Below are positions 1 through 4,928 of a DNA stretch of 64,000 nucleotides, in pieces. Position numbers and translations under genes: made by a program. This stretch comes from Rhizobium sp. PDO1-076 (lineage in GTDB: Bacteria > Pseudomonadota > Alphaproteobacteria > Rhizobiales > Rhizobiaceae): assembly GCF_000247475.1 (NCBI RefSeq), contig NZ_AHZC01000333.1:1-64000 (forward strand). Direction: 5' to 3'. The notes under the pieces are model-generated. The model was not told the origin of the DNA, did not search any database, and saw only the letters and a list, made by a program, of their open reading frames with translations. Position 1 is the stretch's first letter. Every line of letters begins with the position of its first letter.

Positions 1-318
1 CTTGATCTTGAGGTTGCGGATGGAGTGGCCACCCGCCTCGACGATCTTGCGCGCCTCCGGCGTCAGCCGGGAGAGAACGTCGTTGATCACGACTGCTTCC
101 GTGCCACCCAGGAGTTTCCCGGTGGTGTCGTCCCAGATCAGCTTATAGACCGCGCCATGGCGGAAATAGTTGATCTCTACCTCGGTGACACCATGCGCCT
201 TTGCGACGATGATTTCCCCGAGTTTGGAGCCGACGAGAAAGCGGGCAACGGCTTGCTGAACATCGACCGAGAGATCCCAGAACGAGTTCAGAAGAACTTT
301 GCTTTCGTGCATCGTCAT
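1..318 (-). CDS. Unknown small protein, C-terminus beyond window edge
   Basis: An open frame of 106 codons runs on the minus strand from an ATG at 318 (alternative ATG at 312) to the left edge without a stop. The visible protein begins MTMHESKVLLNSFWDLSVDV and contains neither a signal peptide nor a membrane segment. An AGGA element lies about 10 bases before the ATG. It starts 13 bases after the stop of the 68-residue gene, so it is probably the last visible member of the TonB receptor/ABC/Bfd-like operon. I do not recognise the family. The role is unknown, and any link to iron handling rests on position only. Confidence 0.55.
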   Translation of the reverse strand, partial: MTMHESKVLLNSFWDLSVDVQQAVARFLVGSKLGEIIVAKAHGVTEVEINYFRHGAVYKLIWDDTTGKLLGGTEAVVINDVLSRLTPEARKIVEAGGHSIRNLKIK

Positions 319-331
319 GATCTGGCCCGTC

Positions 332-538
332 CTAGTGCTTGTGAGCACCGAGTTCGACCTTGCTCTTGTCGATATCGATTTCACCCTTGCCGGCCAGTTC
401 CGCAACAACGGCCTGCAGCCGCTGCTGTGCCTGAGCGAAAGCATCGTCATGGCCGGTGGCCTCGACGAAGGCTTCAAGCTCCAGCTTGTCCCCATTGTCC
501 AGCATGTGGGCGATTTTGGTCTTGAACATCTGCTTCAT
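332..538 (-). CDS. Small unknown protein (68 aa) in iron operon
   Basis: The preferred start is the ATG at 538, because GAGGA lies 6 bases before it; an upstream in-frame ATG at 550 falls on that Shine-Dalgarno. The protein begins MKQMFKTKIAHMLDNGDK and is predicted soluble and mostly helical, with a middle rich in Ala, Gln and acidic residues and a His-containing C-terminus (ELGAHKH). Its first 65 bases overlap the 3' end of the Bfd-like gene in another frame, which suggests translational coupling. It ends 13 bases before the next small gene. No family is recognised. It is too short for a firm function, but codon phase, RBS and operon position support a real gene. Confidence 0.55.
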   Translation of the reverse strand: MKQMFKTKIAHMLDNGDKLELEAFVEATGHDDAFAQAQQRLQAVVAELAGKGEIDIDKSKVELGAHKH

Positions 539-773
539 ATGTATCCTCACTTTTTGAAGCTTGCAGTTTAGTCGCCACTAAAGCGACTGTTGTCTGTGCC
601 GAGTGATCAAACTCGCTCAGCACACTTCTCACCAGCGGAATGCAGTTGTTGCACTTGGGCATGCATCCGATGGATCTGAAGCAGGTCTTGACGTTGTGGG
701 CCCCGGCGCGGCAGGCGGCGCGGAAGGTCTCCTCGTCAATGTCGTGGCAGGTGCATCTTGTCCGGCAGGTCAC
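474..773 (-). CDS. Bfd-like [2Fe-2S] protein (bacterioferritin-associated ferredoxin family)
   Basis: Small iron-sulfur protein of the BFD-like family, whose best-known member (Bfd) donates electrons to bacterioferritin to release stored iron. Cysteines at residues 7, 9, 41 and 44 give C-x-C-x31-C-x2-C, exactly the Bfd ligand spacing, and the motif region reads CMPKCNNC. There are extra cysteines at 3, 21, 31 and 37. The GTG start at 773 overlaps the stop of the upstream ABC membrane gene (GTGA), indicating coupling. A tail of about 45 residues after the domain is unusual for Bfd (about 64 aa in E. coli) and overlaps the next gene. Electron transfer during iron or siderophore processing is an inference from family and context; no bacterioferritin gene is visible here. 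Confidence 0.8.
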   Translation of the reverse strand: MTCRTRCTCHDIDEETFRAACRAGAHNVKTCFRSIGCMPKCNNCIPLVRSVLSEFDHSAQTTVALVATKLQASKSEDTYEADVQDQNRPHAGQWGQAGA

Positions 774-1765
774 AGGGCGATCTCCTCTGCGCGGGTTTCA
801 TGCGGGCGAAGCGCGCGCCTGACCGATGGCCAGCATTCGCGGATCTTGTTGTGCATCTTGGTGACCGCGCTCAAGGGCTGGTTGAGCAGCTTCAAATTGA
901 CCAGGAAGACGCCGATCTGGACGGCCGACAGTTGCTCCGGCAGGAGTTTCCACAGGCCGCTGAGCGACATGATGAGCAGGAAAACCAGCGAAACCCAGAA
1001 GGCGAAGTCACTGATCGCCTCGCTGGCCTGTTTGTAGAGCTCGAAGCGGATGCGGTTCGAATAGAGCTTTTCCTGCTCGCGGTGGAGCTTCAGCCGGTCG
1101 CCATCGGCCACGGCGGAGCTGACGCTGCCGAACAGCACCAGCCCGGTATGGCTGAGCCGCTGGATCAGGGTGCCGAATGTCAGCGACGCGAGGAATGGCA
1201 CGAGCGCCGATACCAGCAATGCCGGCAGCAATTCGGGAGACAGGGTCGTTTGCCAGATCAGCACGGCCGGGACGCCGACCAGGACGACCCACATGTCCTT
1301 CTGTGCCAGGTCGAAGAGCTTGACGACGTTCTTGCAGTCATTGGTCGCCTTGGCGACATGGTTGCCCGGATCGCCATCGCCGCGGATTTCGAACCATCGG
1401 CGCTGGACGTCGATCAACAGGCGATCGTCATACATGCGGTTGGTCACCTTCTCGACGATATGCAGAAGCGAGAGGCCGAGAAAGATTGCGATGGCATAGG
1501 GGGTATAGGTCAGCAGTTCGACCAGGCTGAACAGCCTTTCCCCTTGCGAAATCTCAAGCAGGACTTCCTTGGCGAACCAGGCCTGTACCGGGGCGATGGC
1601 CGGCGTGACGATATTGGGAAGAACGGTCAGCGCCAGAAGCCATGGATGCGCCAGCATCATGGTGAGCAACTCCCAGATCAGCGCTGGAAGCGGCGCGCGA
1701 GGACAGTGGCTGCTGCCCGCTGTCGCTGCGATCTGTCCTTCTTTTTCCAGCACCTGCATGACCAT
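770..1765 (-). CDS. ABC exporter-type transmembrane protein lacking an ATPase domain
   Basis: The protein of 331 residues looks like the six-helix membrane half of a type IV ABC exporter. Hydrophobic segments fall near residues 40-60, 90-110, 155-200 and 255-290, and the C-terminal stretch with QIGVFLVNLKLLNQPLSA matches the last membrane helix and the start of the linker. The frame stops just where a nucleotide-binding domain normally begins, and no Walker A or LSGGQ motif follows in any frame before the Bfd-like gene. It lies 63 bases after the TonB receptor gene and overlaps the Bfd-like gene by 4 bases. It may work with a separately encoded ATPase, or it may be the stable remnant of a fused transporter. 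An ATG at 1759 is an alternative start. Confidence 0.7.
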   Translation of the reverse strand: MVMQVLEKEGQIAATAGSSHCPRAPLPALIWELLTMMLAHPWLLALTVLPNIVTPAIAPVQAWFAKEVLLEISQGERLFSLVELLTYTPYAIAIFLGLSLLHIVEKVTNRMYDDRLLIDVQRRWFEIRGDGDPGNHVAKATNDCKNVVKLFDLAQKDMWVVLVGVPAVLIWQTTLSPELLPALLVSALVPFLASLTFGTLIQRLSHTGLVLFGSVSSAVADGDRLKLHREQEKLYSNRIRFELYKQASEAISDFAFWVSLVFLLIMSLSGLWKLLPEQLSAVQIGVFLVNLKLLNQPLSAVTKMHNKIRECWPSVRRALRPHETRAEEIAL

Positions 1766-1790
1766 TCCAGACGGGAGTGATGTTGGCTTG

Positions 1791-1818
1791 CCCGGCCCGC
1801 CGGAGATGACGGGCCGGG
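1791..1818. other. Intergenic hairpin between TonB receptor and ABC membrane gene
   Basis: CCCGGCCCG at 1791-1799 pairs perfectly with CGGGCCGGG at 1810-1818 around a 10-base loop. There is no T-run after it, so it is more likely an mRNA-stabilising or attenuating element that lowers expression of the downstream genes relative to the receptor than a full terminator. Confidence 0.6.
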
Positions 1819-1828
1819 CTGAGTTGGG

Positions 1829-4003
1829 TTAGAATTTTGCGCGGATGCCGGCGAAATAGCTCTTCACGCCTTCCTGGATTTCCGTCGTGCCGTCCGCCTT
1901 GTGGCTGACACGCTCGGTTCCGGTGACGTTCTTGGCGAGTGCATAGAGTTCGAATGTCTCGGTGAGCTGGTAATTCATCGCAAGGTCGAGCGAGAGTTCC
2001 GCGTCGCGGGTTTCATTGGCGCTGTCACCGGCGGAATCGATCCGGGCGGTGTAGCCGAGGCCGGCGGACAGCGAGAGTCTGTCGCTCGGATCCGTCCATT
2101 CCAGCGCGACATCGGCGAAGAACGGCGCCTGTTCCTTGAATTCGCGTGTCGTGCCGTCAGCCTGGGTGACCTTGCTGCGGGCAAATGTCTGCGTTGCAAA
2201 TACGGAGAAGCCGCTGACGACAGGCACGTCCAGCGCCGAGAGGCTGATGCGCTGGCTGAGGATGATGCCATTGGTCCAGCCATTGCCGACGTTCTGGTAC
2301 TGGTAGACGCTGTCACCATCGCTGTTGAGCGTGCCGGTATCGACCGTTTCCATCAGGTCCTCGATCGCGCGGTGGAAAAGCCCGAAGGACAGTTCCATGT
2401 CGCTCGTCTCGTAGGTGACGCTTGCATCGAAAGCCCAGGCGCGCTCGGGGTCGAGATCGGGATTGCCGAGCAGCGTGTCGGAATTCTGCGGGATCAGGTT
2501 GTCGAATTTCGGCCGGTTGACCAGGCGCGCGACGCTGGCATCGACGGCCCATTCCTCGGTCGCCTGGAAATGCACTGGCAAGGACGGCAGGACGTCGAAG
2601 ACATTGCCGCCACCGGTCGTGCCATCGGCAATCGCGGCGTCGAGGTCGCTTGCTTCAAAACGCAGGCCCGGCGCGATGGTCAATCCGTTGTCGAAGGTGA
2701 TTTCATCGAGGACATAGCCGGCCCAGACCGTTTCATCGATCGCATAGACTTCCTTGGCATCCAGTGCCTGGACAACGCCACCGACCGTCTTCTGCTTTTC
2801 CTTGGTCCGGTCGCGGATACGGACCAGAGCGCCGGTCTTTACATCATGCTGCACGCCGCCAAGCTCGAACGGCAACAGCAGATCAACCTGGCTAAAGGTG
2901 ACGCGGTCGAGCTTGTCCTCGATTTCCGTCTCGTATTTGTTGGTCGTTTCAACGCCGGCAGCGTTGAAGATGCGCTTGCCCTTGTCCTTCTTTTCGGTGG
3001 TGCGGTAATTGCCCGCCAGCACCTCGACGCTCGCGCCGACCCAGGTGTCGAAATCGTGCCGCCAGGAGCCGCTCGCACCATAGGTCCGCTTTTCCTTCTG
3101 CTCGACTTCCGTCTCGCTTCCGTTGCCGGAGCCGTTGGCCTTGTATTTGTATTTGATCTTGTCCTTGTCTTCATCGAGTCCGAGAAGCAAAGGTTTCAAA
3201 TGGACGGCATTGGCATCGTTCTGCCACAGGATATCGGCGAGCGCGCCGAAGGTATTCATCGACTTGTTTTCGTCCTCGGCTTCGGAAAGAAGTCCGGTCG
3301 CGGTGAATTTTTCCTTGGTCTTGCTGTTGGAATTGCGCGCCCGTGTCAGGCCACCCTGGGCGCCGAAATTGTCGGAATACATGCCGCCGCCGATCGCGCC
3401 GAGATCAAACAGGGTCAAGCCGTCGGAACTGCCGCCGATCGCGTTGTGGACCTCATACCGCGGTGTTTCCGGGATTTCGGCCAGCTTGACCTCTATGCGT
3501 CCGGCAAGGCCATCGGCTTCCATGTCGGCGCGACGACCGCGGATCACCTCGACGGAGTCGACAAGCCCGGCCGGCAGGCTGTCGAGATTGAACTCGCGCT
3601 TTTCGCCGCCGTCCGGCAGCACGATGCCGTCGATCGAGGTGCGGGTATATTCCTTGTCCATGCCGAGAACGCGGGCATCCTTGTCTTCGCCCGGTGCGCC
3701 GCCGGTCATGACACCGGGAAGCCGCTTGACGAAATCCTGCGCCTGCGAGCCGCTTGGCAGGCGGTCGAGCTGATTGCGGTCGAATGTGTCGCCCGGCACG
3801 TTGCCGCGGGCAATGCCTTCGCCGACGCAGAGCGGACGTCTGTCACCCTCGACGCGTGTCTGTCCCGCCGGCAGGCACAGGCGGTCGCTCTTGCCTGAAA
3901 TCACGATTGGATTGAGAACCGTGTCGGCCTCCTGCGCATACACTGCCGCAGTGCCCACCATTCCCACGAGAACCGCAGCAAGCGGCCCGACAGTCGAACG
4001 CAT
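1829..4003 (-). CDS. TonB-dependent outer-membrane receptor
   Basis: Outer-membrane gated barrel of 724 residues that imports a scarce ligand using TonB energy. A signal peptide covers about residues 1-23 (cleavage near VYAQE), followed by a possible TonB box (TVLNPIVIS). A plug domain runs to about residue 170 with the usual S(I)DG and VEVIRG motifs, then the beta-barrel ends in phenylalanine, as outer-membrane assembly requires. An early loop carries a cysteine pair (LCLPAG and PLCVG). The gene leads an operon with an ABC membrane protein and a Bfd-like protein, so an iron-siderophore or heme-type substrate is the best guess. The start at 4003 follows GGGGGA with a 6-base spacer, and that RBS lies inside a perfect inverted repeat. 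Confidence 0.9.
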   Translation of the reverse strand: MRSTVGPLAAVLVGMVGTAAVYAQEADTVLNPIVISGKSDRLCLPAGQTRVEGDRRPLCVGEGIARGNVPGDTFDRNQLDRLPSGSQAQDFVKRLPGVMTGGAPGEDKDARVLGMDKEYTRTSIDGIVLPDGGEKREFNLDSLPAGLVDSVEVIRGRRADMEADGLAGRIEVKLAEIPETPRYEVHNAIGGSSDGLTLFDLGAIGGGMYSDNFGAQGGLTRARNSNSKTKEKFTATGLLSEAEDENKSMNTFGALADILWQNDANAVHLKPLLLGLDEDKDKIKYKYKANGSGNGSETEVEQKEKRTYGASGSWRHDFDTWVGASVEVLAGNYRTTEKKDKGKRIFNAAGVETTNKYETEIEDKLDRVTFSQVDLLLPFELGGVQHDVKTGALVRIRDRTKEKQKTVGGVVQALDAKEVYAIDETVWAGYVLDEITFDNGLTIAPGLRFEASDLDAAIADGTTGGGNVFDVLPSLPVHFQATEEWAVDASVARLVNRPKFDNLIPQNSDTLLGNPDLDPERAWAFDASVTYETSDMELSFGLFHRAIEDLMETVDTGTLNSDGDSVYQYQNVGNGWTNGIILSQRISLSALDVPVVSGFSVFATQTFARSKVTQADGTTREFKEQAPFFADVALEWTDPSDRLSLSAGLGYTARIDSAGDSANETRDAELSLDLAMNYQLTETFELYALAKNVTGTERVSHKADGTTEIQEGVKSYFAGIRAKF

Positions 4004-4007
4004 AACC

Positions 4008-4054
4008 TATCCCCCGGTTAACATGACTCAAAGAGTCATGTTAACCGGGGGATA
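4008..4054 (-). promoter_or_regulatory. Perfect 22-bp inverted repeat over the receptor RBS (candidate iron operator or RNA switch)
   Basis: Arms at 4008-4029 and 4033-4054 are perfectly complementary over 22 bp with an AAA/TTT loop. The proximal arm includes GGGGGA, the Shine-Dalgarno for the ATG at 4003, so as RNA the hairpin would hide it. The centre at 4024-4038 reads TGA-CTCAAAGAG-TCA, which fits the TGA-N9-TCA iron-responsive operator described for RirA in rhizobia. A TTGACA-like -35 lies upstream on the minus strand (4074-4069), but no good -10 at standard spacing is visible. Whether it acts as DNA operator, RNA structure or both cannot be told from sequence. Confidence 0.6.
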
Positions 4055-4400
4055 AATATGAGTAGGACTGTCAATATTTAGTTTGGCAAATATCTGGAAT
4101 TGTTCGACTTGCCATCCGGGCGAGATACCAAGTGTCGGTGGAGCCTACCGAACTGGGGCATTTCCGGCGAAAACCGGTTCACGCTTTTGCTGGAATCGCA
4201 AGCCCCGGACCTGACTTTCGGAACGGAAACGCGCTCGCTTGTGCTGCGGGTGTTGCACAGCCGGTGCAGGGGTGCTGGCATGGGTGCTGACGCTGCATTG
4301 AGATGCTATGGCGCATCGCGTTTTGTGTGCGACGTGCGAAATGTCTCAGGGGCGTCCAGCGCTACCGGGTCGAGATCTGCCGAGGACAGGGTGTTCGAAT
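4055..4400. other. Non-coding spacer upstream of TonB receptor
   Basis: This stretch of 346 bases lies between the receptor start and the rppH stop. No convincing coding frame is seen; a 118-codon plus-strand frame crossing it has no recognisable content and runs antisense into rppH. It presumably holds the receptor promoter. It also contains one copy (4159-4174) of a 16-base element found again at 9685-9700, and loosely repeated GGTGCTG/GGTGTTG words around 4250-4290. Confidence 0.5.
4159..4174 (+). repeat. Short dispersed repeat, copy 1
   Basis: CATTTCCGGCGAAAAC matches positions 9685-9700 (CATTTCCGGTGAAAAC) in 15 of 16 bases. Both copies are intergenic, so this may be part of a small dispersed repeat family; two copies are not enough to define one. 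Confidence 0.35.
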
Positions 4401-4928
4401 TCAGCCGGCCAGATGGGCGAATTCCGCCACGACCTGCTCATAAACACCGCGCTTGAACGGTACGATCAGTCCTGGCAGATCCTGCATCGGCTTCCATTCC
4501 CAGGCATCGAATTCGGCCTGGTGGCCGCCGGGGGGCGGGTTGATGGCGATCTCACTCTCGTCGCCTTCGAAGCGGAAGGCGAACCAGCGCTGGGTCTGGC
4601 CCCGGTATTTGCCACGCAAGCCGATGCCGATCAGTTCGGCGGGCAGGTCGTAGTTGATCCAGCGGCTGGCTTCGGCAAGCAGCGAGACGGTCTTCATGCC
4701 GGTTTCCTCGTATAGCTCGCGGATGGCGGCCGGCAGGGCATCCTCGCCGGCGTCGATGCCGCCCTGCGGCATCTGCCAGAGTTGCGGCGAGCCGTCATAT
4801 TCCGAATTGCCTTCGACCAAACGGCGGCCGGCCCAGACCAGGCCCTGGCCGTTCAGCACCATGATGCCGACGCAGGGACGGTAGGGCAGATCCTCGGCCT
4901 TGACCGATGGGGCGGGGGATTTTTTCAT
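4401..4928 (-). CDS. rppH: RNA pyrophosphohydrolase RppH
   Basis: Nudix hydrolase of 175 residues that removes pyrophosphate from 5'-triphosphate RNA and so starts mRNA decay. The Nudix box lies around residues 56-78, reading GGIDAGED...REL.EETGM, with the expected Glu residues. The preceding [11 protein letters not shown] and LWQMPQGG are typical of RppH rather than of generic Nudix enzymes. It is a little longer than E. coli RppH in its first residues only. GAGGAC sits close before the ATG at 4928. The gene follows the polysaccharide deacetylase gene by 7 bases, so the two are probably co-transcribed, as in other Rhizobiaceae. Confidence 0.93.

Follow-up and report, generated by a model that had tools for sequence, protein, structure and literature searches.

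Tandem putative iron boxes upstream of a Rhizobium TonB-dependent receptor gene, one of them probably extended into a perfect hairpin by template switching

We analyzed a window of 64,000 nucleotides (the whole stretch of DNA under study) and found two TGA-N9-TCA iron boxes in tandem upstream of a TonB-dependent receptor gene, with the second box at the center of a long perfect inverted repeat. From the sequence comparisons it appears probable that the tandem boxes are IRO operators that control the receptor gene, and that box 2 grew into a perfect hairpin through a lineage-specific template switch rather than having evolved as a double lock. The features on which this reading is built are the following.

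4008-4054, no strand assigned: perfect inverted repeat with 22-bp arms (4008-4029 and 4033-4054) and an AAA spacer
4020-4042, no strand assigned: inner palindrome, AACATGACTC-N3-GAGTCATGTT, whose arms are identical in the closest ortholog L022
4024-4038, no strand assigned: core of iron box 2, TGA-N9-TCA, reading TGACTCTTTGAGTCA on the minus strand, at the center of the palindrome
4008-4019, minus strand: outer segment of the gene-proximal arm, AACCGGGGGATA, which holds GGGGGA; proposed template-switch donor
4043-4054, minus strand: outer segment of the upstream arm, TATCCCCCGGTT, unique to the window; proposed template-switch recipient
4059-4073, no strand assigned: iron box 1, TGA-N9-TCA, reading TGACAGTCCTACTCA on the minus strand, absent from the original prediction
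4069-4074, minus strand: TTGACA, candidate -35 element overlapping box 1
1829-4003, minus strand: TonB-dependent receptor of 724 amino acids (PF00593, 1.4e-32; PF07715, 3.9e-10)
770-1765, minus strand: 331-amino acid protein, family unknown, encoded downstream of the receptor gene
474-773, minus strand: possible BFD-like [2Fe-2S] protein (PF04324, E 2e-4; 22.1 bits, under the 26-bit cut-off)

The palindrome sits directly 5' of the ATG of the receptor gene (4003-1829, minus strand). As had been predicted, its 22-nt arms are 100% complementary and are separated by only 3 nt. No longer perfect arm exists in the 64-kb window with loops of up to 10, and shuffling the whole window eight times with dinucleotides preserved gave longest arms of 9-12 bp. 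As also proposed, GGGGGA in the gene-proximal arm (4015-4010, minus strand) is the likely Shine-Dalgarno sequence, with the minus strand reading GGGGG-ATAGGTT-ATG and the start codon at 4003. It is highly improbable that this element lacks regulatory meaning and represents a terminator, the end of a mobile element or an assembly artefact. Such an origin could be suspected because the draft assembly comprises 441 contigs and a perfect palindrome is unusual. However, we rejected an intrinsic terminator at 4008-4054, as no T-run lies beside the repeat on either strand and the sole terminator-like call within 3900-4450 is located at 4302-4317. We rejected a mobile repeat as well, as the 22-mer occurs in the 5.5-Mb assembly only as its two palindrome copies, with up to 3 mismatches allowed. 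The core and its surroundings are moreover conserved in L022 at a dS of ~0.9. An Rfam RNA was discarded since the three matches, mir-2766 (E 2.6e-6), mir-3146 and TtnuHACA21, are eukaryotic models under their gathering scores, and a viral origin since a search of viral contigs returned no relative. Separately, a dispersed repeat of ~42 bp is located at 4158-4199 (query 302-343), with 80-96% matches at many sites in the genus, several copies in the own genome (C424, C431, C420) and some copies close together, for example at G007:C5 184106-184313. We take it to resemble a REP/BIME-type intergenic element.

Over the longer term, purifying selection has acted on the receptor gene, with a dN/dS of 0.06 and a dS of 0.93 against L022. 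At E 1e-3, neither Pfam nor NCBIfam yielded a match for the 331-amino acid protein encoded downstream. The receptor is followed by similar proteins in L022 and L061 and, judged by eye, also in L062. The protein itself looks, by eye, like a multi-span membrane protein. The possible BFD-like protein in the receptor block may be a further hint of iron. PepSY_TM and 2Fe-2S/NAD-binding proteins come after the receptor in L023, and PepSY_TM does so in L057, which fits with iron handling. The ligand of the receptor presumably carries iron. The rppH gene lies upstream of the receptor on the same strand. The neighborhood of the receptor block differs between genomes, with a GGDEF/EAL-like gene upstream in L022 (by eye) and rppH beside the block in the window and in G075.

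We compared the upstream regions of six sequences, the window and five orthologs of 90-43% amino acid identity with readable upstream DNA: L022 (90%), L061 (76%, genome G993), L062 (53%, G1020), L057 (49%, G800) and L023 (43%, a Pseudotabrizicola MAG). L022 belongs to genome G080, because locus L027 falls inside L022. The receptor is distributed patchily among the genomes searched, with matches at E <=1e-30 (own genome counted) in 4 of 385 genomes of the class draw, 5 of 397 of the order draw and 5 of 394 of the family draw. Matches outside G000, G800, G993 and G1020 were 23-29% identical and were excluded. Loci L054-L056, L058-L060, L063 and L064 were left out of the ortholog comparison as different genes in that identity range, as were weak matches; among these, L064 has TGACAAAAGAACTCA upstream, and L063 likewise by eye. 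Further searches at E <=1e-60 yielded no additional ortholog (1/20, 1/6 and 2/394, all of them already known). Within the genus, 35 other genomes and a few more were covered by protein, and all 63 genomes, own included, by DNA of the 5' region.

In the sister genome G075, the block is found at the same place beside rppH, with 94.5% DNA identity over window positions 1-3865. Its receptor (L101, G075:C1:489500-497500, 1747-3737) is broken: the match is spread over three frames, and both the promoter region and the first 46 residues are missing. The upstream neighbor in G075 is a cyclase-like gene (by eye), of which the window retains only an end. G006 holds just a 143-bp remnant of the block in a 6-kb stretch beside rppH, and a protein search of this genome with the receptor gave no match. 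The upstream comparison is consequently limited to the six sequences. G075 came to our attention only late, so that other relatives with an altered 5' end may have been missed. We dropped as unproven the idea that the receptor block had moved, with a border at 4082, given that the G075 block occupies the same place beside rppH; this idea is also weakened by the fact that unconstrained DNA may fail to align at the divergence of L022.

All six upstream regions contain TGA-N9-TCA within 150 nt of the gene, twice in the window, L022 and L061 and once each in L057, L023 and L062. In the window, the two boxes are 35 bp apart from center to center, and box 1 overlaps TTGACA (4074-4069). Box 1 is found at the same place in L022 and L061, and L062 has TTGACTCCTTATATCA. 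The box 2 sequence of the window is AACATGACTCTTTGAGTCATGTT; its counterparts are AACATGACTCTTCGAGTCATGTT (L022), AACATGACTGCAAGAATCATGTT (L061), AACATGACACTAAAACTCATATT (L057) and TGACCCAAAGGGTCA (L023), and in these four orthologs the motif near the start lies 10-30 nt ahead of it. L062 contains only TGACTCCTTATATCA, 81 nt ahead of its mechanically assigned start, which is perhaps the counterpart of box 1. Counterparts of the inner palindrome read AACATGA-N9-TCATGTT in L061 and AACATGA-N9-TCATATT in L057. The probability of at least one motif in shuffled sequence is 0.01-0.08 per locus, and the product of 1.6e-9 overstates the case because the closest three sequences are related. TGA-N9-TCA by itself is a weak motif, with 27 occurrences in the 64-kb window. 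The stricter HATGA-N9-TCATD has 45 sites in the genome versus 1 for a backward control, and inspection of a minority of the 45 related 2 of them to receptor genes.

We asked which regulator would act on these boxes. TGA-N9-TCA is the predicted RirA motif, is present in 5 of 10 RirA ChIP peaks, and RirA targets include outer-membrane receptor genes (PMC8822346). The operator DNA of fhuA is described as bound by [4Fe-4S] RirA and not by apo-RirA (PMC5863699). The present genome encodes RirA (L067, NF008886, 285 bits versus a cut-off of 193). Ten Plug matches were found in it: L097, which is the window receptor; six that gave 250 readable upstream bases; and three that gave no upstream region for the count, namely L098, L099 and, at the edge of a contig, L090. 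TGA-N9-TCA is present at four of the six (L091, L094, L095 and L096), and L092 and L093 lack it in their 250 readable bases. Starts were taken mechanically; for L093 and L096 this was the earliest possible start, and the upstream regions used for these two may be misplaced. L094 (G000:C60) carries tandem TGA-N9-TCA boxes of its own, CATGATAAAAAGAATCATG and TTGACATAAACAATCATG, with starts 27 bp apart; one box of the pair has the form CATGA-N9-TCATG, and the other overlaps TTGACA.

These findings together support, at the level of sequence, the RirA-like operator core that had been predicted as a putative RirA-binding site, with the motif upstream of all six orthologs and at four of six other receptors in a RirA-encoding genome. 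It is unlikely that the dyads are operators of a different regulator, be it another Rrf2 protein, Irr or another repressor. Six Rrf2 proteins score above the cut-off in this genome, and the flanking AACATGA/TCATGTT exceeds the published TGA-N9-TCA in specificity, both of which would suit such a protein. Yet RirA is present, and the motif recurs with its published spacing at other TonB receptors. The site thus shares with the IRO box and RirA regulon of Rhizobiales (fhuA of Rhizobium leguminosarum; fecI, tonB, exbBD and foxA of Sinorhizobium fredii) the TGA-N9-TCA dyad upstream of a TonB-dependent receptor gene in a RirA-encoding genome. It differs in its two boxes, in half-sites that are longer (AACATGA/TCATGTT) and in the 22-bp perfect palindrome that encloses one box. 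A search of one open literature collection found no report that combines RirA, a hairpin and a TonB-dependent receptor.

We next examined whether the palindrome is kept whole in relatives. The alignment shows that the TGA-N9-TCA core is kept but the 22-bp arm pairing is not. Of the inner 10 pairs, L022 keeps 10, L061 8, L023 7, L057 6 and L062 5, and the perfect stem of L022, the closest intact ortholog, is thus limited to these 10 bp. At the outer 12 positions, the window has 12 Watson-Crick pairs, L022 5, L061, L057 and L062 3 each, and L023 2, with 3 expected by chance. When G-U pairs are counted, the values are 9 for L061, 7 for L022, 6 for L057 and L062, and 2 for L023, against ~4.5 expected at even composition. 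L022 and L061 align with each other free of gaps over the stretch that leads from box 1, across the upstream arm, into box 2; there the window alone departs: from the TCA of box 1 to the TGA of box 2 inclusive, it has 26 nt versus 24 in L022 and L061. The outer part of its gene-proximal arm is identical to that of L022 (AAATGGGGGATA) at 10 of 12 positions, and its 12 outer upstream bases are the exact complement of its own gene-proximal outer arm. This one-sided departure, together with the 10/12 agreement on the other side, indicates an old gene-proximal arm and a new upstream arm.

The length of the palindrome is thus better explained by template switching than by an RNA lock. The alignment of the window with L022 and L061 has the pattern expected of such an event, in which one arm is conserved and the other becomes its exact reverse complement in a single lineage. 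A single quasipalindrome switch primed by the 10-bp inner stem would account for both the old and the new arm, whereas separate mutations would need a 2-nt length change plus seven more matching pairs. On the other side, 5 of the 12 outer pairs pre-exist in L022, which we count against template switching. The probable polarity of the change relies on L022 and L061 as two close outgroups to a single derived sequence; a perfect hairpin lost from L022 as well as from L061 would be a less simple history, though a possible one. Quasipalindromes become perfect through template switching in Escherichia coli (PMC7202029), and template switching has been proposed to create RNA hairpins (PMC8794818). 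As in these E. coli lacZ reporters and RNA-gene switches, an imperfect dyad would here have become a perfect inverted repeat by copying of one arm; in contrast to them, the event is here postulated from how natural genomes differ at an operator beside a ribosome site. Among the best-matching titles of one open literature collection, none described template switching at a natural bacterial operator.

Box 1 overlaps a TTGAC element that may serve as -35, and TTGAC is found by inspection in all six ortholog upstream regions. If TTGACA is the -35 element, transcription would start near 4039, inside the palindrome, and box 2 lies just downstream of the element, where a start would be expected. A scan of 3900-4450 for the TTGACA-N16/18-TATAAT consensus called no promoter. 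Compared by eye with the Sinorhizobium consensus CTTGAC-N17-CTATAT (PMC2573895, PMC2873474), the orthologs reveal no consistent -10 element, and the position of the transcript start is thus provisional. Seventeen bases past TTGACA the window reads CCCCCG, which makes no convincing -10. The switch may thus have harmed the promoter, unless the promoter is located elsewhere. In the mechanism that we propose, [4Fe-4S] RirA would bind the boxes and block transcription when iron is sufficient, and would lose its cluster and release them when iron is limiting. During replication in this lineage, the natural dyad of box 2 would have folded back, and the polymerase would have copied the gene-proximal arm with its Shine-Dalgarno sequence onto the upstream side, by which 12 more base pairs would have become an exact reverse complement.

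Hairpins in 5' untranslated regions that sequester the Shine-Dalgarno sequence exist, as in RNA thermometers and similar elements, and the palindrome shares with them a likely Shine-Dalgarno sequence in its gene-proximal arm. The original prediction suggested a possible double lock, in which a repressor site is at the same time an mRNA hairpin that hides the Shine-Dalgarno sequence; such an element would be kept by selection. The comparisons do not support this reading, which we regard as quite unlikely. Were the whole element transcribed, the predicted hairpin would be highly stable (86 nt at -53.6 kcal/mol, z -11.0, with GGGGGA paired), and since rppH lies upstream on the same strand, read-through could carry it in full. 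Imperfect pairing, which had gone unmentioned before, also continues beyond the 47 nt, between TTGACAGTC of box 1 and GACTGTCGG of codons 3-6. When the flanks were shuffled, 0 of 1000 shuffles were as stable in the window (outside the 47-nt repeat) and 36 in L022 (outside the inner 23 nt), a pairing that stands out in the former and marginally in the latter. In L061, L023 and L057 it is, however, unremarkable (107, 128 and 718 per 1000, respectively). L061 is predicted to fold into a different hairpin, and by eye no outer pair has been preserved through changes on both sides. Long arm pairing is thus neither conserved nor compensated in the relatives, with some doubt arising from the 9 of 12 pairs, G-U included, in L061 and from the marginal extra pairing in L022. 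A start inside the palindrome, probable if TTGAC is the -35 element, would yield a transcript missing the outer upstream arm, so that the complete RNA hairpin could not form; this would again set the element apart from known sequestering hairpins. In the predicted fold of an RNA from 4042, GGGGGA is unpaired, and a short neighboring stem reaches the A of AUG.

A reading that joins both processes seems a long shot: one switch would have made, in a single step, an operator and a Shine-Dalgarno-hiding hairpin that blocks translation of read-through or upstream-initiated transcripts. Here the pairing over codons 1-6, weak in L022, would suggest a palindrome growing by repeated switching.

We favor tandem IRO operators with box 2 lengthened by a template switch. 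The locus would then illustrate in nature, with relatives to compare, how one replication slip may turn an ordinary dyad operator into a long perfect hairpin. It also cautions against taking every perfect palindrome that covers a ribosome site for an evolved RNA switch. The receptor gene, with its tandem iron boxes, joins the likely RirA regulon of this genome.
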